Program-made: the position numbers and the translations under genes
Shown: positions 4,233 through 63,576 of the stretch, one piece after another
How the letters are laid out: every line of letters starts with the position of its first letter
How positions within the stretch are numbered: the stretch's first letter is position 1
Notes under the pieces: generated by a model
Databases searched by the model: none
Told to the model about the DNA's origin: nothing
Seen by the model: only the letters and a program-made list of their open reading frames with translations
Source: Panopea generosa
Taxonomy: Eukaryota > Mollusca > Bivalvia > Adapedonta > Hiatellidae
Direction of reading: 5' to 3'
DNA: 64,000 nt
NCBI GenBank assembly: GCA_029582155.1
Contig: CM055907.1
Span: forward strand, 13,857,992 to 13,921,991

Positions 4233-4661
4233 GGTCTCACTACACTGTAGAATTTTGTTCTTTGTACTCCATAAAATAAGGTCTACGGTTTCTACGGTAA
4301 TATAGATTCCACATAGATTATTTTAAAGTATTTTTTTCATAGCAGAAATCTATCCCCACCTCAAAAGTCACAAATAACTGGTTGGCTTACTAGCTTTTTT
4401 GTTTTTAAAAACAGTGCAGTGACACCCCAAGATAGTTTTTAAGTCCACAAATGCTCATAAATACATGTATATGTTAAAATCTTATAAAAGTCACTGTTTT
4501 AACACCAGTGATATCGTAGTGCATTATATGATATGCCAGCTTTTGCTCTGCTCATCTGCAGCAAAAAAACACAACCACTATGAACCATTTTCATAAAAAA
4601 AATTTAAGCATAAGAATCATGTTACCGTGGCAAAAAAGTGGCACAACTGTGTAGTGAGACG
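4233..4661. mobile_element. Small inverted-repeat DNA element, family T (about 430 bp)
   Basis: The left end reads GGTCTCACTACAC and the right end reads AACTGTGTAGTGAGACG, which is the reverse complement of the family's left end, so the terminal inverted repeats are about 16 bp. The interior (GTGACACC, ACCAGTGAT, CATCTGCAGCA, ATGAACCATTTT) matches the element at 63124-63576 along its whole length. No coding capacity is present, so it is a MITE-like non-autonomous transposon. Its left end is the unit of the array at 12628-14487. Confidence 0.8.
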
Positions 4662-8535: not shown

Positions 8536-11500
8536 CTGGAAAAAATAGGGTCATAATAAACTTACGTATTATAATAATAAAGCATAAAAACTAATCTTAA
8601 AATATAAAAGATCACCGAAATGACACAATTTCTAACTCAACAAAACAGTTAAGATCTATCTTTTGTGATACATATATCTAATGTACAAGTCAGGTGAACA
8701 TTTGTGTTTGACCACCGATAACAGTGTCAAAAGATAATGTACGTACGCCAAAATTGATGCTATTGTTTTTTTTTAATTTCAAACATTAAATGGTGGTACA
8801 TTTAGCCACCCATTTAATCATCCCGTGATAGGTGTATGAAGGTCGGGGCGAGCCCTCTCTCTATACACCTTACAAAGTTACATATGATATAAAATAAATA
8901 TAGTTGTTAAAGTTGTAATAGAAAAATTATGTGTTGTTTTCTTTTCCTTTGAAAATTATGTTGAAATATATTTAGTTTAGTGTTTAATCTCATTTGACAA
9001 CCAATAAAATCGCTTCAATTTTTAAAATTGTGTCGCTCTTATTTGTTAATACAGCCTACAAAATAATTTAATAATTAAGTGCGTTCTAAATTATTAAGAA
9101 GTTATCACTGCGCACGCTTGAATGGCAGTGTACAGACACCGCCCTTGATTCAATTCTGGGCGAGTCATCTATAAAATACAAAGCCGCGCGAGCTATGCTT
9201 AGAAACGGCCTTAGCAAACGTCAACTTCAAAACGTCTATCATCTCATCATTCATCGTAGCTCCATCGTAATTCCTTCATTATATCAACACGACTCATCCG
9301 TATTGTGTAATGTACAAATGGTTGCTAATTACATGTTTGTGTATGTATTCTGAGAAATAAGATACGTTTTATTATTATTAGTTAAAAATAGTAAAAGATA
9401 GTTTAGTTAAAAATAGTTAAAGATAATTTAGTTAAAGATAGTTAAAGATAGTTTTTTTAAAGATAGTTAGGATAGCTAAAGATAGTTTTGTTCAAGATAT
9501 TTAAAGATAGTTTAGTTAAAGTTAGTTAAAGATTGTTTTGTTAAAGATAGTTAGGATAGCTAAAGATAGTATAGTTAATGACAGTTAAAGATAGTTTTGT
9601 TAAAGATAGTTAAAGATAGTTTTGTTAAGGATAGTTAAATATAGTTAAAGATAGTTTTGTTAAAGATAGTTAAAGATAGTTTTGTTAAAGATAGTTAAAG
9701 ATAGTTAGATATAGTTTTGCTAAAGATAGTTTCAGACAAAAACGTATGTAACTATTTACCTCTTTCATTTTGCAAATGGCTTTTAGCAGACGCAATACTA
9801 TTATTTACATGTTCGACTTTTCGGTCCGCGAATGTTCAAAATAGTGAAAATAAGGTCAAACGGTCCAATGTAAGTATTCAGGAAACGCCATGGTGGTAGC
9901 TGACCATTTGAATAATGCTTAAATAATTCAAATTCTAACAAAAACATATGTAACTATTTACCTCTTTCATTTTGCATATGACTTTTAGCAGATGAAACGT
10001 GGACATCTATTTCTGCAACATAAACAAAGTATCAACATTACACAAAATCTAAAAGCAAGTTATAAAAAAATACAAGGTTAGTGCCTTTCCGTACAAAGTT
10101 TATTAGGTGAGGCTTAGAAAACGCAACAATTGCGAGGCTCTTCCGGGCCATTCATGCGTTTTCGTGCTGAACCTTATACACTTTGTAGAAAAAGACATTG
10201 TATTTATACTGTTAAATAAGCAAGTAACGTTTTGAAAGAATAGAGGATTGAGCTAGCAGAACTAAGCTTCTAATTATTAACTAAAAATAAAAATTAAGTA
10301 TGTTTATTTGTTATGTATTTTATTATTGTATTTGTTATGTAAGTTGTTGCATAATATCAGTCGAAAGTGCCAGCTTCAGTCGCAACATCTCGGACAATGA
10401 AATTTACACGAAGAAATCCAGGTAATATGAAATTGATGTTTATTGTTTACCTCATTATTATATCGAATAATGACTGGTGATAGGATGAAAGCTTTTACAA
10501 ATCTTTCTCTCTCTTAATTCCATATTATCTTTATCGGAAAACAACAGCGTTAATACGGAATGTCAAACATGTAAACAATAGCTCAGAGCTCGGTCCGCTC
10601 TTTTAAGAAATACACATTTATATAGTTATTTATTTACTCGCTTTTTAAAAAAAACAGTCACTAAAGAGTCTTTAGGTATGGTTGTAACAATACTATAAAG
10701 TTAACCCATTTATTTACGATTATTTTTGTTATTATTGTTATTACAAAAATGTGCATTTCGGAAGTTTAACGAGTCTTTAAGACCATCATTCAACGATAGC
10801 CTATGATATGTAATAAAAGGGTCATGTTCGAAGGACAGAATGCTATAAAGAAAAGCATAACTTTAATGATTCATATCAGTATGCTAGTCTCACATTAAAC
10901 ACACTTTCGTACAAACTGTATATTTACAATACGTGGCCGAGTGGTCTAAACGACGTCTCAAGATCATTTATCGCTCACCAATAAAGTCGTTGGTTTAAGT
11001 CCCCCTCGCTCCAAAAACTTCATGTGAGAAAGTTTACCAGTTACTTGCGAAAGGACGGCGGTTCTACTCCGATTCATTCTGAAGTCTACCTCCAACAAAT
11101 ATAACATGAAATGTGTTGAAAATGGCGTAGAACCAAATTAAAAAACTATATAAAAAAAAATAAAATGATATACATAATTATATATCATGCGTCATACTAT
11201 TCATTACCCTGCAGGGAACATTGCAGCGTTTCCTTCGTCTAAGCATGCGCACTTGTCTTTTTTAGAAATCAGCAAACATAAATGGCTGCAGGTACTTTGT
11301 AGGCATTTACTAAATGCTGATAAAAGAGATGATATTGTCATGTCATTAACAGTATAACTTTGAACTGAACTCGACAAACATGATATTGTCCACATACATT
11401 GTTGAGTTCAGAACAAATATTTTATCTCGAATCTTATTTAATTTATCTGAATGGTAATTACTATTTCCTTATTATATCCCCTTTAAATCATTGTGCATAA

Positions 11501-14500
11501 AGCAATGGGTATGTACCAACTTTCATTCAAATCCAGACAGGAATAAGCAAGAAACAAACTTTTTTATATTCACCACCTACTAAGTAAAAAAACACAATTA
11601 CATAAGGGTCAGGTATGTAGACTATTTGCAGCGTTTAGAAGTGTTATTCCATGCCTGGTTAACATTCGAATAAAAATGCATCAAAATATGTGGATGAGAA
11701 AGTTGTCTTGTTTTTTAAACAAACATCATACATATTAAATTGGGTCAAGGTCAATGAGGTCGGGAAGTATCGCCTTGTTACTAATGCAATTGTGAATTTT
11801 GACTTTGCGAGTGGTACATTTAAAAAATGTTTAACATGCTTATTCCTGTCTGAATTTAAATGAAATTTTCTAAAAATATGCCCAATGAATATGTTCAGTG
11901 TAAATTAAAATATCGAATTATTAACTAAAAATAACGCTTGACGAAATGTCAATATATGCAGGTAACCGATTACAACTTTTGTTGAGTATACTCTACTATT
12001 GCAATGAAACATATCCGTCGTGGGTTCGATTCCCCGCACCACTAAATGTGAGATGTCCTGTAGTAAAATAAACAGAAAAACTATACCCAACAGGAGATGC
12101 AGTTTTTAAAAGACGCCTCCACAAAAGAAGTATGAACGCAATTAATATACGGAATACTTAAAATTGGAATAAAAGTACAATGCATATATAGATAAGAAGC
12201 GACAACAGCGGTCAACGCTTTCGAATGGCCAGTAACAAAAACGCCACTGGGGAGCTCAGACCTCGATAACAGATGCACCCAACCTCTCTCCTTCCCCCGG
12301 CGTCACATCATAAAACGAGATATTGTAATCAAATGTATACCCCGTCAGACTAGAATATTACTTTTACAAATACGACAGCATCCACATGTGTATATTGTAC
12401 AACAAAAAAATGCTCAGTAACAGATATATATTTCAAACATAAAAGAAAATGGTGCTATATGAAGAACACTTTATCCGCATATTAATTAATTGTTATACAC
12501 AAGAACACTTTAAGGGTGACTCGATTGGTGTAAAACAAACCGTTTAAAACAATAAAAAAACACAGTCAAATTATACAGATAGTGACGAAGAAAGTGCTAA
12601 TGTTATGGACAAGTATATGGAGCATTCAGGTATCACTACACAGTTGAATTTTGTTCTTGGTTCTATATAAAATAAGGTCTAAGATTTCAACGTTAAAATT
12701 TATTTCCCATAGACTCTTTTTTAAAGTATTCCTTACATAGCAGGAATGTATCTGTACATAAAATTGGTTATATAAATTAAGGTCTCACTACACAGTTGAA
12801 TTTTGAGCTTGGTTCTACATCAAATAAGGTCTCACTACATAGCTGAATTTTGATCTTGGTTCTATATAAAATAAGGTCTCCCTACACAGTTGAATTTTGA
12901 GCTTGGTTCTATATAAAATAAGATCTCACTACGCGGTTGAATTTTGATCTTGGTTCTATATAACAGAAGGTCTCACTACACAGTTGAATTTTGTTTTTGG
13001 ATCTATATAGAACAAGGTCTCACTACACAGTTGAATTTTGTTCTTGGTTATATATGAAATAAGGTCTCACTACACAGTTGAGATTTGATCTTGGTTCTAT
13101 ATAAAATAAGATCTCACTACAGAGTTGAATTTTGATCTTGGTTCTATATAAAATAAGGTCTCACTACACAGTTAAGATTTGATATTGGTTCTATATAAAA
13201 AAAGGTCTCACTACACAGTTGAATTTTGATCTTGGCTCTATATAAAATAAGGTTTCACTACACAGTTGAGATTTGATCTTGGTTCTATATAAAATAAGGT
13301 TTCATTACACAGATGAATTTTGTTCTTGGTTCTATATAAAATAAGGTCTCACTACACAGATGATTTTTATCTTGGTTCTATATTAAATAAGGTCTCACTA
13401 CACAGTTGAATTTTGAGCTTGGTTCTATATGACAGAAGGTCTCACTACACAGTTGAATTTTGTTCTAGGTTCTATATAACAGAAGGTCTCACTACACAGT
13501 TGAATTTTGTTTTTGGTTCTATATAAAATAAGGTCTCACTACACAGATGATTTTTTATCTTGGTTCTATATAAAATAAGGTCTCACTACACAGTTGAATT
13601 TTGAGCTTAGTTCTATATAACAGAAGGTCTCACTACACAGTTGAATTTTGTTCTTGGTTCTATATAACAGAAGGTCTCACTACACAGTTAAATTTTGTTT
13701 TTGGTTCTATATAAAATAATGTCTCACTACACAGATGAATTTTGTTCTTGGTTCTATATAACAGAAGGTCTCACTACACGGTGAGAATTGATCTTGGTTC
13801 TATATAAAATAAGGTTTCACTACACAGATGAATTTTGTTCTTGGTTCTATATAAAATAAGGTCTCACTACACAGATGATTTTTTATCTTGGTTTTATATT
13901 AAATAAGGTCTCACTACACAGTTGAATTTTGAGCTTGGTTCTATATAAAATAAGGTCTCACTTCACAGCTGAATTTTGTTTTAAGTTCTAAATAAAATAA
14001 GGTCTTACTTAAAAGCTGAATTTTGTTCTTGGTTCTATATAAAATAAGGTCTCACTACACAGCTGAATTTTGTTCTTGGTTCTATATAAAATAAGGTTTC
14101 ACTACACAGTTGAATTTTGATCTTGGTTCTATATGGTATAAGGTCTCACTACACAATTGAGATTTGATCTTGATTCTATATAAATTAAGGTCTCACTACA
14201 CCGTTGAAAATAGGTTCGCACTACACAGTTGAATTTTGTTCTTGGTTCTATATAAAATAAGGTCTTACTACACAGTTGAACTTTGAGCTTGGTTCTATAT
14301 AAAATAAGGTCTCACTACACATCTGAATTTTGTTCTTGGTTCTATAGAAAATAATGTCTTACTACACAGCTGAATTTTGATCTTGGTTTATATTAAATAA
14401 GGTCTCACTACACAGTTGATTTTTGTTTTTTGTTATACATCAAAATATATCTCAATACACAGTTGAATTTTGTTCTGGTTCTATATAAGCAACAACCTGT

Positions 14501-17500
14501 CTTAAATGGACACTTTTGGTCCTTCCCTTGACGGGCTGCTTAAGACAGGTTTGACAGTACTCGGTAATTAAAAATAGGGGTATTTTAAACAACGTAACTG
14601 ATATTTAAATAAGATGGTACAGTAATTTGAAATAGATTACCAGTTCTAATGTTCTTTTTCGGGTATGCAACGATTCCATTCAATCTTGCAAATTGTGGTG
14701 GACCAACTTGCTATAAAGATTTCTTTCCATTTATGGTTATTCTACGAACATACCTGTAATACCAAAATTGACAATTATTCAGGATGGGATGTTGCAATGT
14801 ACAATGAACTGCAACACTGTTACAGGAGTTATATCAAACACTAATAGTGTACATGTGGAATGACATCATATCCAATAGTAAATTTCACAGATTGAATTGC
14901 TTCAATTTCTGATGGATAAAAGAGCATTGTGCAATCTTAAATCATTGTAGTTGTTATGGAATACTGGTTGTTTTCTCCGTGTCAAAGACATACTGTCCAT
15001 AGAAATAAGGAGTTCAACTGACTAATTGAAATGCAGACAGGTAAGCATCATGCTAAATGTAATTGAGACTTGCATATAAACAGTATGAAACGAATGCACA
15101 AAACTTGATTTTTTAAGTATAAGAATCGGCAGTGAAGAGTGTAAATATATATACCTGACTTGGGCTGTCAATCAGAAGCATCGATAATCCAATCAGCGAT
15201 CAATGTTGGTTGCTACGAAACCACAAGAAAGCTATGCCGAAGCAAACACTACATTGTATTTACTTGGACAAAGAGGTTTGTGGTCAGCGGACGGGAGTAA
15301 TACTTGTTGTTACACAAAGTCAATTATAATCAGCCCTTTGCAGTAACAATAACAGCCCATTGAAATGCTACTGTATGTAGGTGTAATCTTAAATAAGTAC
15401 AAATAATTTATAAAATACAAAGCATCGAGTTATCAACAAGAAAGGATGCTACAATACTGCAAACGTGCCACTGCGGAGTAAAATCTGGTCACCGTCGCAC
15501 ACTTATATTGAAATAAAAGGTTTTCTGTGTTCGAGAAATCCAGGGCGCGGACGGTATCCAATCATTTACATGTACGAAAGAACGGTGGTTCAACTCAGGT
15601 TCATACTCGGGTCTACCTCAACTAATAAAAATGTAACGTGCAAATATACCAGGATTTTTTCAAAATTTTAAAGTTGGTTAAAAACATTTGTTTTTCAATA
15701 TACCAGGCCTATATATACTCACTGAACCCGTATTGCCGAACAAACGTATACAATAATACATTGAAAAAGGATTCGCAGACCTTCTAAAACCAGTCAAACC
15801 TGTGTAAGCGGTCACCTCTATTAAGCAGCCATTTGTCTTAAGCAGCCATATTTTCTATTTCCCATTTCTATGTTTTCAGAGTAAATTAACCTGTATTAAG
15901 CAACAACCTTTCTTAAAATGTCAATTTTGCCCCTTCTCTTGACTTGCTTCCTAAGACAGGTTTCACTGTAAGTGCAACATTGACGTTCATGTAAACCTAC
16001 ACACTACTATCTGTCTATCTACTCATACTGCATCAACCTCTTGCAATGACCACGTGCAGGCCGAATGTGTACAGGATTACTGGCACTTGCATCACTGATT
16101 GACAAATAGTTCAGTGAGATATTTCATGTACACTGGGTATGACTCTCGCTGTACACGGGCTGACTGCTTTAAATTGTCTCCGAAGGATTGCATACTTTCA
16201 CAGTCCCTTGCCAAAGCAGGTACTGTGGAAATGCGTTTGAAAATTTCCGAACGAAACTAGGAACACGAATGCTTAACCAGATAGATAAAGTACGTGAACA
16301 CCGGTTGGGTTTGTTTACCTTTGTGAGCGATAAAACTTTGGGTTATAAGTGATAAAATGTGGACTATTTTTCAAACAAAAAAATATACGAACATATGGGT
16401 AAAGGTATACATTTTATGTTGCCTAGATGATTTAAAAAATAATTAGTTACTTAGAAACTATTGACTTTTTTCAATACCAACGCTATATATATAAACACTA
16501 TTGATACAACCGGTTTAATAACATTGTGTTCATTGTGATAGGCTGTAATTATCAACCGTGTCTATTGTTACGAGTACAGTTAACCGACTCTTTAAATATA
16601 GACGAAATCTGATTTAAAAAATAAAATCTACGGAAGCCTATTATGGTCAGCCTGAAACACCAATTGTACAAAATGAACATTGAAATTAATACTTACAGAA
16701 AAGCGCATAGGATCGTTTGGACCAGGAAGGGGATTTAGCTGTTATACGTGCAGCACTCATTATAAACCATATAGTACCTGTGGATCAGACATACACTATC
16801 GTACATTTTTTATATGTTTGTTAGTGACATTTACACTTTTGACAAGTCATGTCTTAGTTAAATACCTGAAGTCAACTGCTACCGTTGGCAATGAAATACG
16901 TTTTACAAGCCAGGAGTGCCATTTAACAATTATGGGTGATTGTCAAATCAAAGTGTGCAGATATGTACATGGTGAAATGTTTTGGACCCAATCAACATAC
17001 AATACCTACTCGTCGAAGAGACTATTGCTGTCTAGGATATCGAAACAAACCCAGGTCCATTAACCGATGAGGATGAAATATTAAATGCAATATATACGAC
17101 AAGTAAAGATCTTAAGTCGGAAATCCAACATGTAAAATCTGATATAGTTATTATTAAATCAGAAATGGAATCAATGCGGCTTACATGTACGGAATTAAAA
17201 ACGGCTATCTTAAATAATGAAGAGAAACAAAAAAGTGTTGAAAATAGGCTCGATAAAGATGAAATTGAAATAAAATGTGCTCGTGACAATCAAGAAATGA
17301 TTCAATTAGAAATTAACGCCATTCAGTATATTGTGGTGTGGATGAAAATACCGATTGTGTTAACAAAATAGAAGACCGGTTTGAAAAGATAGAAGCGAAA
17401 TCAATACAATCAAATATGCGTATATTTGGGTTAAATTAATTTCTAAATGAACATAGTGAAGGTCTGTTAAAGAAAAAAGTGATTGAAAATGTATTGAATG

Positions 17501-26164: not shown

Positions 26165-29045
26165 GAATACCCATACCATATAACTAGTATAAAATCAAGT
26201 TCCGTACCGTATAACTAGTATAATATCAAGTTCCGTACCGTATAACTAGTACAATATCAAGTTCCGTACCGATCAATCAGTATAATATCAAGTTCCTTAC
26301 CGTATATCAAGTTCCGTACCGTATATCTAGTATAACATCAAGTGCCATACCATATAACTAGTATAACATCAAGTTCCGCACCATAAAACTAGTATAAACT
26401 CAAGTTCCGTACCGTATAACTAGTATAACCAAGTTCCATACCGTATAACTTGTATAACATCAAGTTCCATACCGTAGTATTACATCAAGTTCCGAACCAT
26501 ATAACTAGTATAACATTAAGTGCCATACCATATAACTAGTATAACATCAAGTTCGATACTGTAGTATAACATCAAGTTCCGTACCGTATAACTAGTATAA
26601 CATTAGGTGCCATACTGTATAACTAGTATAACATCAATTTCATACCATATAACTTGTATAACATCAAGTTCCGTACCATATAACTAGTATAAACTCAAGT
26701 TCTGTACCGTAAAACTAGTATAACCAAGTTCCATACCATATAACTTGTATAACATCAAGTTCCATACCGTAGAATTACATCAAGTTCCGAACTATATAAC
26801 TAGTATAACATTAAGTGCCATACCGTATAACTAGTATAACATCAAGTTCGATACTGTAGTATAACATCAAGTTCCGTACCGTATAACTAGTATAACATTA
26901 AGTGCCATACCGTATAACTAGTATAACATCAATTTCATACCATATAACTTGTATAACATCAAGTTCCGTACCATATTACTAGTATAACTTCAAGTGCAAT
27001 ACCGTGTCTGTACCGTATGACTAATATAACCTCAAAATACCTACCGTATAACTAGTATAACATCAAGTTCCGTACCTTATAACTAGTGTAATATCAAGTT
27101 TCGTACCCTATAACTAGTATAACATTAAGTTCCATACCATATAGCTAGTATAACATCAAGTGCCATACCGTATAACTAGTATAGCATGAAGTGCCGTACC
27201 GTATAACGTGTATTACATCAATTTCCGTACCGTATAACTAGTATAACATCAAGTACCATACCGTATAACTAGTATAACATCAAGTTCCAAACCGTATAAC
27301 TAGTATTATATCAAGTTCCATACCGTATAACTAATATAACATCAAGTTCCGTCGCGTATAACTAGTACAACATCAAGTTCCATTCCGTATAACTAGTATA
27401 ATTTCAAGTTCCGTACCGTATAACTACTACAACATCAAGTTCCGTACCCTATAACTAGTATAACATCAAGTTTAGTACCGTAAAATATCAAGTTCTGTAC
27501 CGTAGTTTAACATCATGTTCCATACCATATAACTAGTATATCATTAAGTGCCATACCGTATAACTAGTATAACATCAAGTTCCATACCATATACATGTAA
27601 CTATTATAACATCAAGTTCCGTACCGTATAACTAATATAACATCAAGTGCCATACTGTATAACTAGTATAACATCAAGTACAGTACCGTATAACTAGTAT
27701 AACATAAAGTTCCGTACAGTATAACTAGTATAATATAAAGTTCTGTACCGTATAACTAATATAACATCAAGTTTCCAACCGTATAACTAGTATAACATTA
27801 AGTTCCGTACCATATAGTTAGTAAAACATCAAGTTCCGTAGCGTATAACTAGTACAACATCAAGTTCCATACCGTATAACTACTATAATTTCAAGTTCCG
27901 TACCGTATAACTACTATAAAATCAAGTTCCGTACCTTATAACTAGTATAACATCAAGTTCCGTACCGTATACTATCAAGTTCTGTACCGTAGTATAACAT
28001 CAAGTTTCATACTATATAACTAGTATAACATTAAGTGCCATACCGTATAACTAGTATAACATCAAGTTCCATACCATATAACTATTATAACATCAAGTTA
28101 CGTACCGTATATCTAGTATAACATCAAGTGCCATACCGTGTAATTAGTATAACATCAAGTGCCATACCGTGTAACTAGTATAACATCAAGTGCCATACCG
28201 TGTACCTTGTATAACATCAAGTGCCATACCGCGTAACTAGTATAGCATTATGTTCCGTACCTTATAACTAGTAAAACATCAAATTCTGTACCGTATAACT
28301 AGTATAACATCAAGTTCCGTACTGTATAACTAGTATTGTATCAAGTTCTGTACCGTATAACTAATATAACATCAAGTTCCCAACCGTATAACTAGTATAA
28401 CATCAAATTCCGTACCTTATAACTAGTATAATATCAAGTTCCGTACCGTATAACTAGTATAACATCAAGTTCCTTACCGTATAATTAGTATAACATCAAG
28501 TTCCGTACCGTATAACTAGTATTATATCAAGTTCCGTACCGTATAACCAGTATAACATGAAGTGCCATTCTGTATAACCAGTATAACGTCAAGTTCGATA
28601 CCGTATAACTAGTATAACATCAAGTTCCGTACCGTATAACTAGTATAACATCTAGTGCCATACCGTATAACTAGTACAACATCAAGCTCCGTACCGTATA
28701 ACTAGTATAACATCAAGTGCTGTAATGTATAACTAGTATAACATTAAGTTCCGTACCGTATAATATAAATTTTCGTACCGTATAACTAGTATTACATCAA
28801 GTGCCATACCGTATAACTAGTATAACATCAAGTTCCGTACCGTATAACTAGTATAATATCAAGTTCCGTACCGTATATATAGTATTACATCAAGTTTAGT
28901 ACCGTATAACTAGTTGAACATCAAGTGCCATACCGTATATAACTAGTATAACATCAAGTTCCATACCGTATAACTAGTATAACATCAAGTGTCATACCGT
29001 ATAATTAGTATAACATCAAGTGCCGTACGTATAACTAGTATATAT
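26165..29045. repeat. 31-bp satellite, about 90 units, with higher-order duplications
   Basis: The unit is GTATAACTAGTATAACATCA followed by AGTTCCGTACC (31 bp), centred on the palindrome ACTAGT. Variant units (GTGCCATACC, missing GTATAACTAG) recur in blocks: one block repeats with an offset of about 295 bp (26421 and 26716), another with about 487 bp (27361 and 27848). The array lies between the divergent LRP-like and D8C genes. Confidence 0.95.
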
Positions 29046-29727: not shown

Positions 29728-32700
29728 GTAAGTGTATCAATTTTGATTAAACTTAACCCCACCCCTGGTTTAAGCCCAACCCCCATAGCGTCTTTGACAA
29801 CTGACCGTTCCGGTGCGACTATGTTTTAATTATTGTCAAAAACACCAAAAATCGATGAATAACTTCCCATACAGTAATTCTTTTCACGTGACTGTGTTGT
29901 TAAGCACATTTATGTTAATACTATTTATACCGATTAGCTCGTTCGGTAGCATGTCTGACTATCAGCCCATGGGTCGAAAGATCGAATCCCCGCCCGGTCA
30001 CAATGTCCGTGATGTTTGATATACGACATTGTGTCTCAATGTCATTCTTCTTTCACCGCAAATAAGAAAGTTATCCGTTACTTGCGAAGCTTGGTGTGCT
30101 CTAGTACTGGTTAACATGCCAGACTCCCAGGAAAGAGTGGGAAGGTCTGATGGGCTGTTAGCCCTTGACGGTATAACAATGCCGCTAGATATTCAAACAA
30201 ACGAACGAACAGTTTTATTTAGCTTTTATGCATCAACATTTTATTGATTTACATTTCCACTTGCCTTGTTATCGCCCAATTTTCAGCTTATTACAATTGA
30301 CTGGAGTTCTATATTTTTTTATAATTTTAATATACTAATTAAAAATGTTCCATGATGAAGCTGCCATTTCAAAATTTGCTTCAGTCCGGTGAAGGTATTG
30401 TGAACAGACCGGCTTGTGGTGATACAAGAGCCGGTTACCCTAGCTGCTGCGGCTACACGAGTTGGATAAGAGTGAAAAACTGCGGCGACTACATGGTGTA
30501 CGACCTCCAGTCCTTGCCCGGATGTTCCATGGCTTACTGTGCAGGTTTGTTTCGATGCTTGCCTTAAGTGTATAAATCAAGTTGAGGATCTTGATTGACT
30601 TGACTCTTTTCGTCGACTCTATCCAGATCATTGCTGAATAAACCATGGCCTAGTGGTCTAAGGCACTTCTTTTCTTTCTTCCTTCACCAGTTCAAATCTC
30701 CCGTCCGGCCACAGTTTCCTTGACAACTGATATAAGGCATTGCATCACATTTTAATTCGTCTCTCACCGCTGCTTCAAGTTGACAAGTCATCAGTTACTT
30801 GCGGAGATAGGTGTGCTCGAGTACTGTTTAATCCTCTATGATCCCATGAAAGAATGATAAGGTTAGCTGACCGTTATTTAGCCCTCGATGATGCGAAATA
30901 TTCACACACATTCTTCCACAAATAAATCTATGCCATATATCACCAGTTTCGCATTGCGAATGACATGTATTATTTAAAGGTAGCGGACCGCAAATTATAG
31001 ACGACACAAGTCATTCCTCTTTTCCGGAAGTGACCTCTTTATGAAAATGAGAGGTCAGTGAAATTCCAGAACGGCAGAAAAGGTTTGCCTATTAATTTTT
31101 TAATAAACTATGCAAATAAATATAGGGTATTTAAATTTATCAGAGGAAACAGTTATATACAAAACATTTTACTTCTAATTCAACATGATTGAGCCCAAAA
31201 TAAATGCCGGCCTTTTTTCACTGCGAATTTGAAATGTTTGTAAACAAAAAAAGCGGCATAGTAGGAAATTTTCGATAGCTCATTTTTGTGTGTATTAAAC
31301 GATAGGATTTGATTGTTTCTTTGAGCTTAAAAGGGAATGTCTATTTTAGACGCTTTTTTCCTTGCGGCTGTTCCTTTTGTACAAAGGCTTATGGGAAATG
31401 AATAACAGAACCGCAGTCTAAATAACCTGCATACAATAGCCAGTTTAAGCATCTTGACTGTGACTCCTGCTGCAAATGGCGTCCATTTAAGTTGGGAATA
31501 ATAAAATATGGCATGCATGCATTAATCTTTTAGCACTTTTTCTTAAAAGTTCTAATGTTTATTTTATTTTTAGAAATACTTATACTTATATATATTGTTT
31601 GATTTTTTTTGGTTACATCGGCATTCACTTTTCACATATCAATAAAAATGCAAACCTGAACAAGTATTATGGCACCATACAGATATGTTAATAATGTTAA
31701 ATTCTGATGCAGGAAATATCTACCAGAATGGGTCGTGGGTGTGTTCGTTTCTTGTTGATAATCGATCGGAATTCCTCTATAATGTTCGCATATTTGCATA
31801 GATTTGAGGATAGTTTTAGGGCTACGATTTATACCCCGCACTCAATGTAAGATTGACATGGAGCTGGTAACCAGCATTCTTTTGAATCGTAACAAAAAGA
31901 ACAAAATGACTGTCAAATGCAGGAGTGTTCACTTTTTTCGAACAGAAAGTAGAGTGAAGCAGTCCATTGGAGTATGCGGCCTCAACTTAATTACATGTAT
32001 TACTTAGATATGTGTCTAAAGCACGACTGAGAAATGTAATGGATATATGACGCAAGACACGTGATATAGAAAGTGTTTTTTTAAGTTAATGTGTGTTGCA
32101 TTGATATTTGGAAATATTCTATATAGAACAATCTCTCAATTTTCTAGCTTATAAAAAGATTATTTGATACCGTCGACAATGCTGCATTCCTTAATGATTT
32201 CTTTGTAGGATCTCTTAGCCCGTGTGAAAATGACGAATATTCAGTGGCTCATCTACTCACCCTTCAGTAATATAAGGGCTCATCTAATCATCCTTCAGAA
32301 ACATAAGGGCTCGTCTACTCATCCATCAGAAACATAAGGGCTCATCTACTCATCCTTCAGAGACATAAGGTCCCATCTACTCATCTTTCAGAAAAATAAG
32401 GGCTCATATAGTCATCCTTCAGAGACATAAGGTCCCATCTACTCATCTTCCAGAAACATAAGGGCTCATCTACTCATCCTACAGAAACATAAAGGCTCAT
32501 CTATTTTACCATAGAAACATAAGGGCTTATCCACTCATTCTTCAGAAACATAAGGGCTCATCTACTCATCCTTCAGAAACATAAGGGCTCATCTACTCAT
32601 CCTTCAGAAACATAAGGGCTAGGCTACTTATCCTTCAGAAACATAAGGGCTCATCTACTCATCCTTCAGAAACATAAAGGCCAATCTACTCATCCTTCAG

Positions 32701-35700
32701 AAACATAAGGGCTCATCTACTCATCCTTCAGAAACATAAGGGCTCGTCTACTCATCCCTCAGAAACATAAGGGCTCATCTACTCATCCTTCAGAAACATA
32801 AGGGCTCGTCTACTCATCCTTCAGAAACATAAGGGCTCATCTACTCATCCTTCAGAAACATAAGGGATCATCTACTCATCCTTCAGAAACATAAAGGCCA
32901 ATCTACTCATCCTTCAGAAACATAAGGGCTCATCTACTCATCCTTCAGAGACATAAGGTCCCATTTACTCATCTTCCAGAAACATAAGAGCTCAGCTACT
33001 TATCCTTCAGAAACACATGGGCTCATCTACTCATCCTACAGAAACATAAGGGCTCATCTATTTAACCATAGAAACATAAAGGCTTATCCACTCATCCTTC
33101 AGAAACATAAGGGCCCATCTACTCCTCCTTCAGAAAAATAAGGGCTCATCTACTCATCCTTCAGAAAAATAAAGGCCAATCTACCCATCATTCAGAAACA
33201 TAATGGCTCATCTACTCATCCTTTAGAAACATAAGGGCTCATCAACTCATCCTTCAGAAACATAAGGGCTCATTTATGTGTCCATAGAAACATAAGGGCG
33301 CATCTACTTATCTATAGAAACATAAGGGCTCATTAACTCATACTTCAGAAACATAAAGGCTAATCTACTCATTCTTTTGAAAGTTAAGGGCTCATCTACT
33401 CATCTTTCAGAAACATAAGGGCTCATCTACATATTTTTCAGCAACACAAGGGCTCTTTTACTCATCCTTCAGACACATAATGGCTCATTTACCCACCCTT
33501 CAGGAACATAATGGCTCATCTACTCATCCATAGAAACATAAGGGCTCATCTACTCATCCTTCAGAAACATAAGGGTTCATCTACTCATATTCAGAAACAT
33601 AATGGCTCGTATACTTATCCATAGAAACATAGGGGCTCGTATACTTATTCATAGAAACACAAAGGGTCATCTACTCATCCTTCAGAAGCATAAGGTTTCA
33701 TCTACTCATCCTTCAAAAACATAATGTCTTATTTACTCATCCTTCAGCAACATTTGCGATCATTTATTTATCCATAGAAACATAAGGGCTCATCTACTTA
33801 TCCATATAAACATAAGGGCTCCTCGTCTCATATTCCAGAAACATAAGGGCTCATCTACTCATTCATCAGAAACATAAGGACTTATCTACTCATTCTTAAG
33901 AAACATAAGGGCTCATCTACTCATTCATCAGAAACATCAGGCCTCATTTACTCATCCTTCAAAAACATAAGGGCTCATCTTCTCATTCATCAAAAACAAA
34001 AGGGCTCATCTACTCATCCTTCAGAAATGGCTTATCTACCCTCCCTTCAGAAACCTTCCCTTTTGGCAGCCATTGAGTATATTTGGTTACGTAGTTAATG
34101 GATTGCTTGTTGCCAGCTCCGTCACAATCCTACATTGAATGCTGGGTAAAGTACGCAATCTCGTCTGCAATGCATATCGGAGAACATATAATGCACAACA
34201 TAAACCTGCATTTCTGACACATATCGCACAACACAAACTTTACTTTCAGACACATAACACAAAAGCTTAAATGATGTTCTAACACAAACATTACTTTTCA
34301 ACACATAACACAACACACACCTGACTTCTAACACAAAACACAAGACAAACCTGACTTTCTAACACATTGCACAACACTAACCTGACTTCTTACACAAAAC
34401 ACAACACATACCCGACTTTCTTACACATAACACAAACCACACCGGACTAATAACAAATAACTCAAACCTGACTTTCTAACACATAACACAAACCTGAAAT
34501 TCTAACACATAACACAACACACACCTTACTTTCAAACATATTACACAAACCCGACTTTATAGCACATAACACAAACCTAAATTTCTAACACATTTCACAC
34601 AACACAAACCTGACTTTTAACAGATAATACATAACACAAAACTGACTTTCTAACAGACAACACACAACACAAGCCTGACTTTCTAACAGATAACATACAT
34701 CACAAACCTGACTTTCTAATAGATAAATACAACACAAACCTGACTTTCTAACAGATAATACACATCCCAAATCTGTCTTTCTAGCACATAACACGCATCA
34801 CAGACCTGCCTTTCTAACACATAACACAAAACACAAACCTGACTTTCTGACACGTAACACACAACACATAAATGCCTTTCAAACACATAACACACATCAG
34901 AAACTTGACTTTCTAACACATAACAAACATCACAAACCTGACTTTCTAACAAATAACACACAACACAAACCAAACATTCTGACACATAGCACACAACCCA
35001 AACATGTCTTTCTAACACATAACACACATCAAAATCCTGATTTTTTGACACATAACACACACCACAAACCTGATTTTTTTACAGATAAACACACATCACA
35101 AACTGACCTTTTTAACAGATAATACAAATCACAAACCTGACTTTCTAACACATAACACACATCACAAAGCTACCTTTCTAACAAATAACACACATAACAA
35201 AACTGACTTTCTAACACATAATACATATCACAAACATGACGTTCTGAAACAAAACAAACAACATAAACCTGCTTTTCTTACACATAACACATATCACAAA
35301 CCTACATTTCTAGCACATAAAATACATCACAAACCTACCTTTCTAACACATAACATACAACAAATACCTGACTTTCGAACACATAACACATCAAAAACCT
35401 GACTTTTTGACACATAACATACAACACAAACCTGACTTTCTGACACATTACACACAACATTTACCTTACTTTCTGACACATAACACACAACACACAGACA
35501 CGCCTTTCTAACACATAACACACATTACCTACCTTCCTTTCTAACACATAACACATATCACAAACCTGCCTTTCTAACACATAATACACATCACAAACCT
35601 GACTTTTTCAACCGTAACACACAACGCAAACCTGACATTCTGACACATAACACACAGCATTTACCTTACTTTCTGACACATAACACACAACACATAGACA

Positions 35701-38700
35701 CGCCTTTCTAACACATAACACACATTACCTACCTTCCTTTCTAACACATAATACACATCACAAACCTGCCTTTCTAACACATAACACACATCACAAACCT
35801 GACTTTCTGACACATAGCATACATCACAAACCTGACTTTCTGACACATAGCATACAGCGCAAACATGACTTTCTAACAGATATCACACAGCACAAATATG
35901 ACTTTCTAACACAAAACACACAACACAAACCTGATTTTCTGACACATAATACACATTACAAACCTGATTTTCTAGCACATTACATACAACTCAAACCTCA
36001 CTTTATGACACACAACACATAACACAAACATGCTTTTCTAACACATAACACAAAACACAAACCTGACTTTCTGACACGTAACACACAACACATAAATGCC
36101 TTTCAAACACATAACACACATCAGAAACTTGACTTTCTAACACATAACAAACATCACAAACCTGACTTTCTAACAAATAACACACAACACAAACCAAACA
36201 TTCTGACACATAGCACACAACCCAAACATGTCTTTCTAACACATAACACACATCAAAATCCTGATTTTTTGACACATAACACACACCACAAACCTGATTT
36301 TTTTACAGATAAACACACATCACAAACTGACCTTTTTAACAGATAATACAAATCACAAACCTGACTTTCTAACACATAACACACATCACAAAGCTACCTT
36401 TCTAACAAATAACACACATAACAAAACTGACTTTCTAACACATAATACATATCACAAACATGACGTTCTGAAACAAAACAAACAACATAAACCTGCTTTT
36501 CTTACACATAACACATATCACAAACCTACATTTCTAGCACATAAAATACATCACAAACCTACCTTTCTAACACATAACATACAACAAATACCTGACTTTC
36601 GAACACATAACACATCAAAAACCTGACTTTTTGACACATAACATACAACACAAACCTGACTTTCTGACACATTACACACAACATTTACCTTACTTTCTGA
36701 CACATAACACACAACACACAGACACGCCTTTCTAACACATAACACACATTACCTACCTTCCTTTCTAACACATAACACATATCACAAACCTGCCTTTCTA
36801 ACACATAATACACATCACAAACCTGACTTTTTCAACCGTAACACACAACGCAAACCTGACATTCTGACACATAACACACAGCATTTACCTTACTTTCTGA
36901 CACATAACACACAACACATAGACACGCCTTTCTAACACATAACACACATTACCTACCTTCCTTTCTAACACATAATACACATCACAAACCTGCCTTTCTA
37001 ACACATAACACACATCACAAACCTGACTTTCTGACACATAGCATACAGCGCAAACATGACTTTCTAACAGATATCACACAGCACAAATATGACTTTCTAA
37101 CACAAAACACACAACACAAACCTGATTTTCTGACACATAATACACATTACAAACCTGATTTTCTAGCACATTACATACAACTCAAACCTCACTTTATGAC
37201 ACACAACACATAACACAAACATGCTTTTCTAACACATAACACACAACACAAACATGCTTTTCTAACACATTACACACGTCACACACCTACCTTTGTAACA
37301 CATAACACACATCATTAACATGACATTCTAACACAAAACATACATCAAAACTTTACGTTCTAACACGGAACACACATTACAAACCTTCCTATCTAACACA
37401 TAACACACATCACAAACCTGACTTTCTAACACATAACACACATCACAAACCTGACTTCGTATCACATAACACACAGCACAAACCTGACTTTCTAACACAT
37501 AACACACAGCACAAACCTGACTTTCTTACACATAACACACATCACAAACCTGACTTTCTGCTACATAACACACAACACAAACCTGCCTTTCTAACACATA
37601 ATACACAACACAAACATGACTTTCTAACAGATAACACACAACACAAGCCTGACTTTCTAACACATAACACTCAGCACAAACCTGACTTTTTAACACAAAA
37701 CACACAACACAAACCTGAATTTCTAACAGATAACACACATCACAAACCTGACTTTCTAATAGATAACAAACAACACAAGCCTGACTTTCTAACACATAAC
37801 ACACAAAGCAAACATGACTTTCCAACAGATAACACATAACACAAGCCTGACTTTTTTAACACATAACACAAGTCTTACTTTCTAACAGATAACACACAGC
37901 ACAAACATGACTTTCTAACACAAAACACACAACACAAACCTGATTTTCTGACACATAACACACATTACAAACCTGATATTCTAGCACATAACATACAAAT
38001 CAAACATGACTTTATAACACATAACACACCTCAAAAACCTGACTTATAAACACATAACAAACATCACAAACCTGACTTTCTGAAACATAACATACAACAC
38101 AAACCTGACTTTTTAACACATAACACACAATACAACCTTGACTTTCTGACACATTACACACAAAACAAACCTGCCTATCTAACACATAACACAGATAACA
38201 AACATAACAAACCTGACTTTCTAACAGATAACAAACAACACAAGCTTGACTTTCTAACACATAACACACAACTCAAATATGATTTTCCAACAGATAACAC
38301 ACAACACAAGCCTGACTTATTAACACATAGCACACAACACATGTCTTACTTTCTAACATATAACACACAGCACAAACATGACTTTCTAACAGATATCACA
38401 CAGCACAAACATGACTTTCTAACACAAAACACACAACACAAACCTGATTTCTAACACATAACACACATTACAAACCTGATTTTCTAGCACATAACATACA
38501 ACTCAAACATGACTTTATAACACATAACACACATCAAAAACCTGACTTTCAAACACATAACACACATCACAAACTTGACTTTCTGACACATAACATACAA
38601 CACAAACCTGACTTTTTAACACATAACACACAATACAACCTTGACTTTCTGACACATTACACACAACACAAACCTGACTTTCTAACACATAACATATATC

Positions 38701-41531
38701 ACAAACATAACTGTTTATCACATAACATACATCACAAACCTACCTACTGACACATAACAAACATCACAAGCCTGACTTCCTAACACATAACATACATCAC
38801 AAGCCTGACTTTCTTACACATAACACACATCACAAACCTGACTTTCTGACACATTACTAACATCACAAGCCTAAATTTCTAGCACATAACACACATCACA
38901 AACCTGACTTTCTAGCACATAACACACAACACAAACTTGACTTTCTAACACATAACACACATCACAAACCTGTCTTTCTAACACATAACACACATCACAA
39001 ACCTGACTTTCTAACACATAACACATGACTTTCTGACACATAACACACAATACAAACCTGACTTTCTGACACATAACACACATCACAAATCAGACTTTCT
39101 CACACATAACACACATCACAAACCTGACTATCTCACACATTACGCAAAACACAAACCTGCCTTTCTAACACATAACACACATCACAAACCTGACTTTCTG
39201 ACATATAACATACAACACAAACCTGACTTTCTAACAGATAACATACACCTGACTTTCTCACACATATCACACAACACAAACCAAACTTTTTGACACATAA
39301 CACACAACGCAAACCTGCCTTTCTAACACATAAAACACATCACAAACCTGACTTTCTAATACATAACACACATCACAAACCTGACTTTTTAACACATAAC
39401 ACACAACACAAACCAAACTTTCTGACACATAACACACAACACAAACCTGACTTTCTAACACATTAAACACATTCATTTATTTCATACTGATTGACAACAC
39501 AGGTCAAGTGGGAAAGGAAATTCAGCAATTTTGTTACCTGGATATAGTGGATATCACAGAAGTTGTAAAGTTTACAACAACATCTACTGTATTCTACAAA
39601 TCGATTTGCCAGAATGGTAATACAGTTTTTAAATCATAAATACAGTTTTCCCATTGTTTTCTCGTGCGTGATATATCCACTGTAAAACTCTCTTGCCTCC
39701 TTGACTGCTTACTACCCACACTAAACGTTACCTCCTCAAATCCTATTTGATAAAATAGACATTGAAAGCAAGTATTCACGATATTAAACTAGCAAATAGA
39801 AGAAGACTCTGTGTATTATGTAGTCTGTCCATGAGATTAGTGGAATAAGTGCATGTAACACCCCTCACACAACCTAGTACCACCTTAAATACACGGGACT
39901 GTACTTGTAATATACTGACCAGCAAGCAAAGGTAGATAGGCAGGAGTTGAGACTCCAGATCACTGTTTCCTTATACCATGTAAAACAACACAGCTCGGTT
40001 TTAAATGAACAAGATACAGAAACCATGATTTATATCATTGTGTACACAGTATATCTACATGAATACAAACTACCAAAGTACTTTAAATGTGCACAGTTTT
40101 TGGAAAGAGATCATTAACTATTATTCATTTGACCTTGTTTCTGTTATCTTTGAGGATGAAACATTTTATTCCAAAAACTACGGATTCATAAATGATAATA
40201 AATACATGAATAAAGTATTGGGGTGGAAAGCTTTAGATTAATATAAAATAATAACACTTACTGGAAAACGATCATAGTAATATACAAGTAACAACAGTCA
40301 GCCTTTAAACATGTGATCATTTTCAACCAAACACCAAGTTAGATGTGTAGTCAAGGCTTTATTCGTACAACAGCTACGATAATACTAGCTCTCTACATGT
40401 ACAACTACTAAAGAACATGTTGTAAACATTTAGATGGATTTATCAAATTATTTCTCCTAAATTGTGTTGAGCCTCTGACGTTATAATTATACTGTATAGA
40501 ACAAGAGTGGCAATTTCTATAAATGTATATCTTCACCGTTTGGCATTTTTCAATCCCGGTAAAGTATATACATTTCTATATATCCACAGTTTCCTTTTTG
40601 TCCCAAGACTGTTATAGTGTCTTCTTATTTTTTCTTCTTTCTATTGAGTCATTTTACTATTAACGATATACAATAAAGTCGGTACAAAATGCTGGAAATT
40701 CGAATCGAAGACAAATGCTCAAATTTTGATATCATTTTTCGGATTATTCAATGTAATAAACCCGGTTTGTAATGTAATGTTTCAATGGTGTTTATGCTAT
40801 TTCAACACAACACAGGATATATATGGTAAGTTTTCTATTGGCGGGAATTACCTCAGAATAAACCTCCATAGACAACGACCTTTCCACAAGTATCTTTCTT
40901 ACGTAAAGTATTTGGACTAAACCTGCTGACATTGGCGGTGAATGGTAAAGGATATTGAGATAGCCCGTTAGACCACTTGTTAGGGTGGGTAGCATTAAAA
41001 TAAATTATCGAATATATTATTTTCTTTATTGTACAGCACGTATGTATTGTTTGTTAGCCATTTTAAATACAGTGTACGTTTTTCAATAGTATTTCAATGG
41101 CCAATTTTCTAATATTCAGTTTAATGGTATGGATGATGTTGATAAATGTGAATGTCACAAACGTTCCCAGAAAAAAAAATGAATATATTATTAAGGCTTA
41201 TGTTAGAAGAAGCAGTACAATATATAATCAATGACATTCCAAACAGCTGTCAATAATATGTTGTTATGTAACTACATTGTATCTATTATAAATTGTTTGA
41301 TGTTTAATTTCAAGCATAATTTCATGTAAAACATATATCTATTTATTTGTATATGTGACTTATAAGTCCATTAGGCCGTGTGTGTGTTTTAAAATTCAAT
41401 ATCTGTATATCATGTTACTCACTTAATCACTTACCTACCTGCCTTCATGCCTTCCTGCCTGCCTACCTAGCTGTCTACATACCTACCTACATACCTACCT
41501 ACCTACCTGACAGCCTATCTACCTACCTACG

Positions 41532-63123: not shown

Positions 63124-63576
63124 AGGACTCACTGCACAGTTGAATTTTGTTCTTTGTTCTATATAAAATAAAGTCTAGGATTTCCATGGAAAAAATGAAT
63201 TTCACATAGAATGTTGTCTAAAGTTTTCTCAGCAGGAATGTATATCCACATACAAATAACTGGTAGGTTGACCAGCGTGTTGTTTTTTTGTAGAGGGTGT
63301 AGTGACACCCTGATAATTATTGAAAAAAGAAGTCCTCAAATGCTCGTAAATACACGCTTATGTTGAAATCCTATAAAAGTCATTTTTTAACACCAGTGAT
63401 GTCTTATTGTAGTATATGCTATGCCAACATTTTCTCTACTCATCTGCAGCAAGAAATCACAACTATTATGAACCATTTTGAAAATAATTAAAAACTAAAT
63501 TACATGGACCTTTTTTAAAGCGTAAGAAGCATATTACCGTGGGGGGGGAAAAGGGGCGTAACTGTGTAGTGAGACG
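63124..63576. mobile_element. Small inverted-repeat DNA element, family T (second full copy)
   Basis: The left end is GACTCACTGCACAGTTGAAT and the right end is TAACTGTGTAGTGAGACGT. The interior matches 4233-4661 throughout. It lies in the intron about 80 bp after the donor of the 62705-63040 exon. Confidence 0.8.

Follow-up and report, generated by a model that had tools for sequence, protein, structure and literature searches.

Probable repeated in-place expansion of the left end of a small transposon into 47-bp arrays in Panopea generosa

Transposon ends are listed as sources of satellites in two reviews (PMC12628747, PMC9659126), and several described systems come close to the arrays reported here. 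In Drosophila virilis, tandem repeats derived from the terminal inverted repeats (TIR-220) of Tetris, a non-autonomous DNA transposon like ours, seed satellite-like arrays (PMC4079207), and for the D. virilis group a table entry in one review pairs the pDv terminal repeat with the pvB370 satellite, likewise the terminal part of a transposon turned satellite (PMC9659126). Among MITEs, miDNA4 of Xenopus tropicalis and Xstir/Xmix of Xenopus laevis similarly carry one or many monomers, and microhomology-driven changes in copy number have been proposed for them; Xstir is described as internal in one of the two reviews and as derived from the terminal inverted repeat in the other (PMC12628747, PMC9659126). 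In human minisatellites derived from transposons, as probably in our case, the segment between short direct repeats was duplicated in place after insertion and the units are mutually closest; that study describes no hotspot in AluJ and AluY and two over-represented regions each in AluS and LTR12, attributes only 6% of cases to the two known mechanisms, and cites the direct-repeat model of Haber and Louis (1998) as well as Jurka and Gentles (2006) (PMC3389668).

Given the precedents of Tetris and the human direct-repeat minisatellites, together with the reviews on transposon ends, the class of mechanism is already known; the present case stands out by how often a single cassette has apparently given birth to arrays, and by periods specific to individual copies. 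The element concerned, which we call family T, has short ends and one left-end unit, whereas Tetris is a foldback element with long terminal inverted repeats that already contain repeats (PMC4079207). The miDNA4 monomer is internal and thought to have been captured, whereas the T unit is the element's own end, with births that are apparently many and separate (PMC12628747, PMC9659126). In contrast to the human minisatellites, all T births seen (in a search by unit) use the same 40–51 bp at the element's end, inverted repeat included, and arrays of up to about 142 units occur (PMC3389668). We noticed no report of family T in the literature searches that we made, which is not proof of absence.

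The window analyzed here is a stretch of 64,000 nucleotides (C14:13857992-13921991), and the genome searched comprised 1.474 Gb in 39 contigs. Array places and T copies are designated by L numbers, and the array of the window by W. The original prediction had located the array and its related T copies correctly to within 1–2 bases; the relevant features are:

4233–4661, + strand: T1, a complete single-unit copy of T, with a second GGTCT at 4280–4284, 47 bp after the first (G4233)
11980–12627, no strand assigned: segment between block flank and head, present whole in 13 blocks, partial at C14:14767581 and unmatched in L012 and L015
12629–12675, + strand: head unit, the 5′ end of a T copy, directly after TTCA (which fits the TNNA target-site pattern) and with T31G already present
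12676–12763, + strand: T interior fragment, element positions about 48–131, ending at a TTGGTT common to the unit
12764–12780, + strand: partial unit 3′ of the junction, from unit calling
12781–14488, + strand: 47-bp array with 37 unit starts, its consensus differing from the family unit by T26A and T31G
about 14189–14213, + strand: one 25-bp partial unit inside the array, from unit calling
63125–63576, + strand: T2, a complete single-unit copy of T, whose second repeat lies 47 bp from the first and is changed to AAAGTCT

T1 and T2 are 72% identical. The inverted ends of T1 form 15-nt arms that are 93% complementary; those of T2 are similar in sequence, but the left one carries changes (GACTCACTGCACAG), and their pairing is not reported by the repeat finder. 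All 22 full copies, which measure 429–467 bp, have ends within four substitutions of GTCTCACTACACAG/CTGTGTAGTGAGAC. No open reading frame of at least 110 amino acids lies over T1, and one enters the left end of T2 from outside. T copies are flanked by a TNNA target-site duplication of 4 bp, whose two middle bases are the same on both sides in 65% and 58%, as compared with 40% and 39% in mismatched partners (55 of 58 copies tried, the left flank in the L089 row being array sequence). Taken one by one, these sites are weak: 4/4 identity was seen in 6 of 22 single copies and in 6 of 40 array places (L013, L018, L019, L049, L054, and L062) as against 7.6% of mismatched pairs, and agreement at three or more of the four bases (10/22, 7/20, and 9/20) lies little above the 33% null. 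T thus combines the features of a MITE—short inverted ends, a fixed-length target-site duplication, short length without a transposase frame, and high copy number—and is a non-autonomous DNA transposon of about 430–465 bp, although TNNA sites of 4 bp do not settle its superfamily. We also considered a foldback element and rejected it, as the inverted arms of T span only about 15 bp.

To judge abundance, we counted junction 21-mers with up to two mismatches: the unit–interior junction occurs 5,786 times genome-wide and the unit–unit junction 1,510 times, with a single match for each in the reversed-pattern control. All 22 full copies—T1, T2, and 20 of the 40 listed T places, with T2, L029, L030, and L031 sharing flanks and hence copies of one insertion—have a single unit. 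A sample of 20 junction copies from C1 (taken in irregular steps from the first 66 rows of the 100 exact matches listed, all on C1) contained 19 single-unit copies, one truncated element, and no array; C1:6667916, a row outside this sample, belongs to the dimer L049. Two pairs of unit–interior junctions on this contig lie only 70 and 209 bp apart (C1:71645252/71645322 and C1:69194392/69194601) and are perhaps nested or tandem T copies.

Arrays were found at no fewer than 88 distinct places among the matches listed, 12 of them in a cluster on C14 (13.3–15 Mb) and one on C28; as they were located via their unit, births elsewhere in T would be missed. We fetched 60 of these places (L009–L028, L049–L068, and L089–L108), among which L012 and L015 are C14 blocks and L049–L068 derive from a list of exact matches to the unit consensus. 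The original prediction had read the polarity of the system from the order unit, interior, array in the window. However, in L009–L028 the T interior lies 3′ of the array at 17 of 20 places and 5′ of it at none, which makes the window the exception. Interior resembling GGTCTAGG directly follows the last unit, by a loose match, at 13 of these 20 places and at 17 of 20 in L049–L068; by eye, it does so at about 14 of 20 in L089–L108, not including L090, L093, L099, and L100, with L101 and L103 ambiguous. Matches to the right inverted repeat exist at 14 of 20 (L009–L028) and 15 of 20 (L049–L068) places, although those at L014, L024, L025, and L060 lie at odd distances and are doubtful. With the interior 3′ of the array and the right inverted repeat at most places, the common form is array, interior, right end—that is, a T copy with an expanded left end.

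The size of these arrays is graded, from 2 called units up to 142, with a continuum at 2–13 plus single cases to 142; the largest seen spans about 7 kb (L025), lengths being dependent on the quality of a single assembly. Many arrays across the range of 2 to 142 units keep the interior and the 3′ end attached. The same genome therefore holds both a unit homologous to part of T and the transitional forms from element to array, and the claim that family T supplied the 47-bp unit from its 5′ end, and that arrays grew there, is well supported genome-wide.

T starts on the left with GGTCT and has (AA)GGTCT again at base 48, and the unit is the interval between them. As T1 carries its second AAGGTCT 47 bp inside the first and T2 the equivalent AAAGTCT, short direct repeats already delimit the unit where it is present only once, which is what the Haber–Louis model calls for. 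In 41 single copies the spacing from GGTCT to GGTCT was 47 bp in 34, 40 bp in six, and 46 bp in one. Three single copies (L077, L078, and L085) show the same shortening as the arrays with a 40-bp period, and may be one insertion copied, since their flanks are alike. A prediction of our own from the direct-repeat model, that longer homology (TAA before GGTCT) should favor arrays, found no support in a small sample (7 of 30 arrays versus 12 of 39 single copies, p 0.59).

Do the arrays share one origin, or did they arise separately? Counting L012, L015, W, L003, L005, and L007 as one lineage, and calling a substitution private and fixed when it is present in at least 60% of the units of its own lineage and in less than 30% in every other, we found private fixed substitutions in 10 of 19 lineages, each absent from single copies or present in less than 10% of them (for example T24C in L018, T40C in L021, A42C in L023, and T26C in L024); the other nine lineages have none. 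The nearest relative of a unit lay in the same array for 0.55 of 159 units, versus 0.044 in label shuffles (up to eight units per locus from 20 loci, with L012 and W taken as one lineage). Between 13 short arrays, units of the same index did not correspond (0.0922 for same and 0.0917 for different index). Most arrays have a 47-bp period, and others have periods of their own: 40 bp in L089, L090, and partly L091–L094, 42 bp in L102, 46 bp in L099, 48 bp in L107, and 51 bp in L104. The breakpoint of the last differs from that of the 47-bp arrays, its unit including GGTCTA, ending in ...AAGGTCTA, and joining GGTCTC; L105, with intervals of 47, 50, and 51 bp, may represent another distinct breakpoint.

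The outermost units are the most diverged: first and last units differ from their array consensus by 0.080 and 0.118, as compared with 0.038 in the middle (19 arrays; p 0.008 and 0.0016), which fits unequal exchange. In L022 (C10:66.46 Mb; 63 called units), 14 intervals measure 54 bp and are interspersed with 47-bp ones, a hint of a sub-variant spreading inside one array. A tree of interiors (37 arrays, 20 single copies) intermingles array and single-unit copies, though with slight clustering (12 changes versus a shuffled mean of 16.7; 5 of 500 shuffles gave so few). Its supported forks are few, its starred branches number 3 of 54, and interior is missing from several rows, so that we used this tree only to show that array copies are not one clade. 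Taken together, the span from 2 to about 142 units, the private substitutions, and the individual periods suggest many separate births in place, at many insertion sites.

The reading we favor, and regard as probable, is therefore that the left-end cassette of T expanded in place, independently at many sites, and that the array of the window is one rearranged lineage among them. Slippage or unequal exchange would find a ready unit in the first 47 bp, which the direct repeat delimits and which comprise the terminal inverted repeat and some 30 bp more. Once inserted, a T copy would now and then duplicate this stretch, passing from one unit to two, and further unequal exchange would enlarge and homogenize the array, up to about 142 units. 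We infer that growth followed insertion, rather than expanded copies having transposed, and that microhomology drives the first duplication step. Underlying this reading are the derivation of the unit from T, the graded series of sizes, the private variants and periods at many loci, the diverged edge units, and the order of array then interior, which is the order that in-place growth gives.

The window array itself has a more complicated structure. TRF reports a 47-bp array at 12769–14208 (30.7 copies, 87% matches) that continues at 14207–14488, and 37 unit starts were called between 12781 and 14448, with intervals of 47 bp in 33 cases, 46 bp in three, and 25 bp in one. The head (12628–12752/12763) is 80% identical to T1 across 125 bp and 78% identical to T2 across 141 bp, both with E near 1e-26, and blastn (E 1e-3) found no further T sequence 3′ of the array, past 14488. 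Directly 3′ of it, at 14489–14560, lies a dispersed repeat (CTGTCTTAA...AAGACAGG) that recurs at 15897–15970 and also occurs in L008, L012, L014, L015, L016, L024, and L026.

T31G marks this lineage: in the C14 blocks examined for it (six loci plus the consensus of L001–L008), it is present in 73–94% of the units of W, L003, L005, L007, L012, and L015, and in none of the 22 single units. T1 and T2, which had been proposed as the founders, lack it along with all other single units and are thus relatives of the array rather than its source. Interior and array meet at TTGGTT. The corresponding interior sequence is ACTGGTT in T1 and ACTGGTA in T2, and only T31G gives the unit of the window lineage its CTTGGTT. 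The window array would accordingly be described as one T31G lineage of in-place expansion that was probably rearranged later: a T31G array may have recombined with T interior via the short TTGGTT match that T31G itself had created, after which the right half would have been lost, the array being cut on its 3′ side, and the whole copied along C14 with its block.

We searched for such blocks with window positions 11700–12790 (flank, segment, head, and array start, with only 10 bases inside the array). Among the matches listed, all four parts are contiguous at 12 or more places including the window, at 91–100% identity, 11 of them on C14 (13.40–14.94 Mb) and one on contig C28 (0.71 Mb). L005 is one more block, split at query position 965/966 by 7.5 kb between flank and head. 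Partial blocks end at query position 280 (window 11979) in L012 and L015 and at position 532, within the segment, at C14:14767581; no block with the whole segment and without the head was seen among the matches listed. All 13 blocks with the whole segment have the head, and C14:14767581 matches only the first part of the segment, so that for L012 and L015 a loss of segment and head by deletion seems simpler than the retention of an older state. Within the lineage, arrays count about 10 to 12 units in L006–L008, L012, and L015, 30 in L005, and 37 in the window and L002, with longer runs at C14:14.024 and 14.943 Mb.

The original prediction had expected most arrays to start with the same interior junction. 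Among the matches listed, the contiguous structure was seen only in the C14/C28 blocks, as was the combination of T31G, flank, and junction, and the window junction is thus one event copied by block duplication. As a founding junction of arrays generally we rejected it, since it is confined, among these matches, to one duplicated lineage. The C14 region at 13.40–14.94 Mb together with C28 at 0.71 Mb forms a large segmental-duplication cluster with the window inside. T2 has eight other copies, 90–100% identical, at C14:13.59–14.92 Mb, and in L005 the 47-bp array (1–417) directly abuts a 33-bp repeat (417–1837) that by eye resembles the one at 34477–39471 of the window.

Arrays and single copies are distributed differently over the contigs (36 versus 43 places, permutation p 0.004). 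The former are 50 places minus the 12 of the C14 cluster and minus one of each of two paralogous pairs, the latter 47 exact 61-mer matches minus four at array places; both sets consist of exact matches, the array set was drawn from 100 of 104 matches, and duplications may remain among the arrays. Four contigs picked after seeing the data—C12, C17, C19, and C9—hold 26 of the 36 arrays and 7 of the 43 single copies. Loci on the same chromosome also share more unit variants (0.21 per pair, versus 0.08 on different chromosomes; p 0.007), so some spread between arrays by local exchange or duplication is likely. Would such spread—ectopic exchange or gene conversion among nearby T copies plus local duplication—account for most arrays, leaving true births far fewer? 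Besides the uneven distribution and the shared variants, some places are plain duplications (L012/L015, L050/L051, L089/L090, and L091–L094, with L064/L065 weaker at 79%). However, when up to 245 bp of 5′ flank was compared between the 60 places (E 1e-10; L099, with hardly any flank, aside), no further pair matched, sharing is low in absolute terms at about 0.2 variants per pair, and the neighbors L099 and L100 on C9 differ in period (46 versus mostly 47 bp), so that we consider this account unlikely.

Rather less probable still is that a few T copies became multi-unit early and that these expanded forms transposed, each array then being homogenized locally. Target sites with 4/4 identity around expanded copies at six places and the mild clustering of array copies on the interior tree would agree with it, and homogenization within arrays could yield private variants after transposition of an expanded copy, which counts against taking such variants as separate births. 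Yet intact target sites are equally expected if growth came after insertion, no group of more than two rows composed only of arrays reached a support of 80 on the tree, and the lack of positional correspondence between the units of different loci, the locus-private periods, and the one different breakpoint all speak for births in place. Selection for arrays because repeated inverted ends bind transposase, an idea discussed for Galileo and Tetris (PMC4079207), appears very improbable. The description of the window array as a run of potential transposase-binding sites holds in so far as each unit does carry the inverted-repeat sequence, but these bases are not more conserved than the rest inside arrays (mean divergence 0.043 versus 0.036 in 27 arrays), so there is no sign of a binding function, and no group of copies descended from one expanded copy was seen. 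Scarcely credible, finally, is the reverse order of events, in which a pre-existing 47-bp satellite was captured by the transposon as proposed for a tandem repeat and the MITE miDNA4 in Xenopus (PMC12628747): the unit carries T's own terminal inverted repeat, the single-unit form is the rule in the sampled copies of a family with 5,786 junction matches, and the arrays differ in period and, once, in breakpoint.

If in-place expansion is taken one step further, family T might constitute several thousand latent satellite seeds dispersed through the genome, almost every copy having the same direct repeat at its end, with repeated births at this cassette, copy-specific periods and breakpoints, and the chromosomal region deciding where they occur—a generalization that we put forward tentatively, as somewhat short of probable. 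Were it true, the family would offer satellite birth as a natural experiment with replicates, every stage between 1 and about 142 units being present within one genome. Whereas the origin of satellites is usually inferred from one lucky array, T offers many apparent births at the same short cassette; thousands of single-unit copies can serve as controls, intermediate stages are present, and separate events are distinguishable by their differing periods. With such controls, the rate of satellite birth and the role of microhomology length and of chromosomal region become measurable.

The window holds several further minisatellite arrays, at 1902–2466 (55 bp), 9378–9731 (25/84 bp), 26174–29042 (31 bp), 32246–34027 (31 bp), and 34477–39471 (33 bp), and the region is thus generally rich in tandem repeats. 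Inside the 33-bp array, 35049–35402 and 36273–36626 contain identical translated stretches, which suggests a higher-order duplication of about 1.2 kb. Between 17036 and 21246 lie several open frames, one of them beginning with DIETNPGP, a start that we take to be typical of LINE-like elements.
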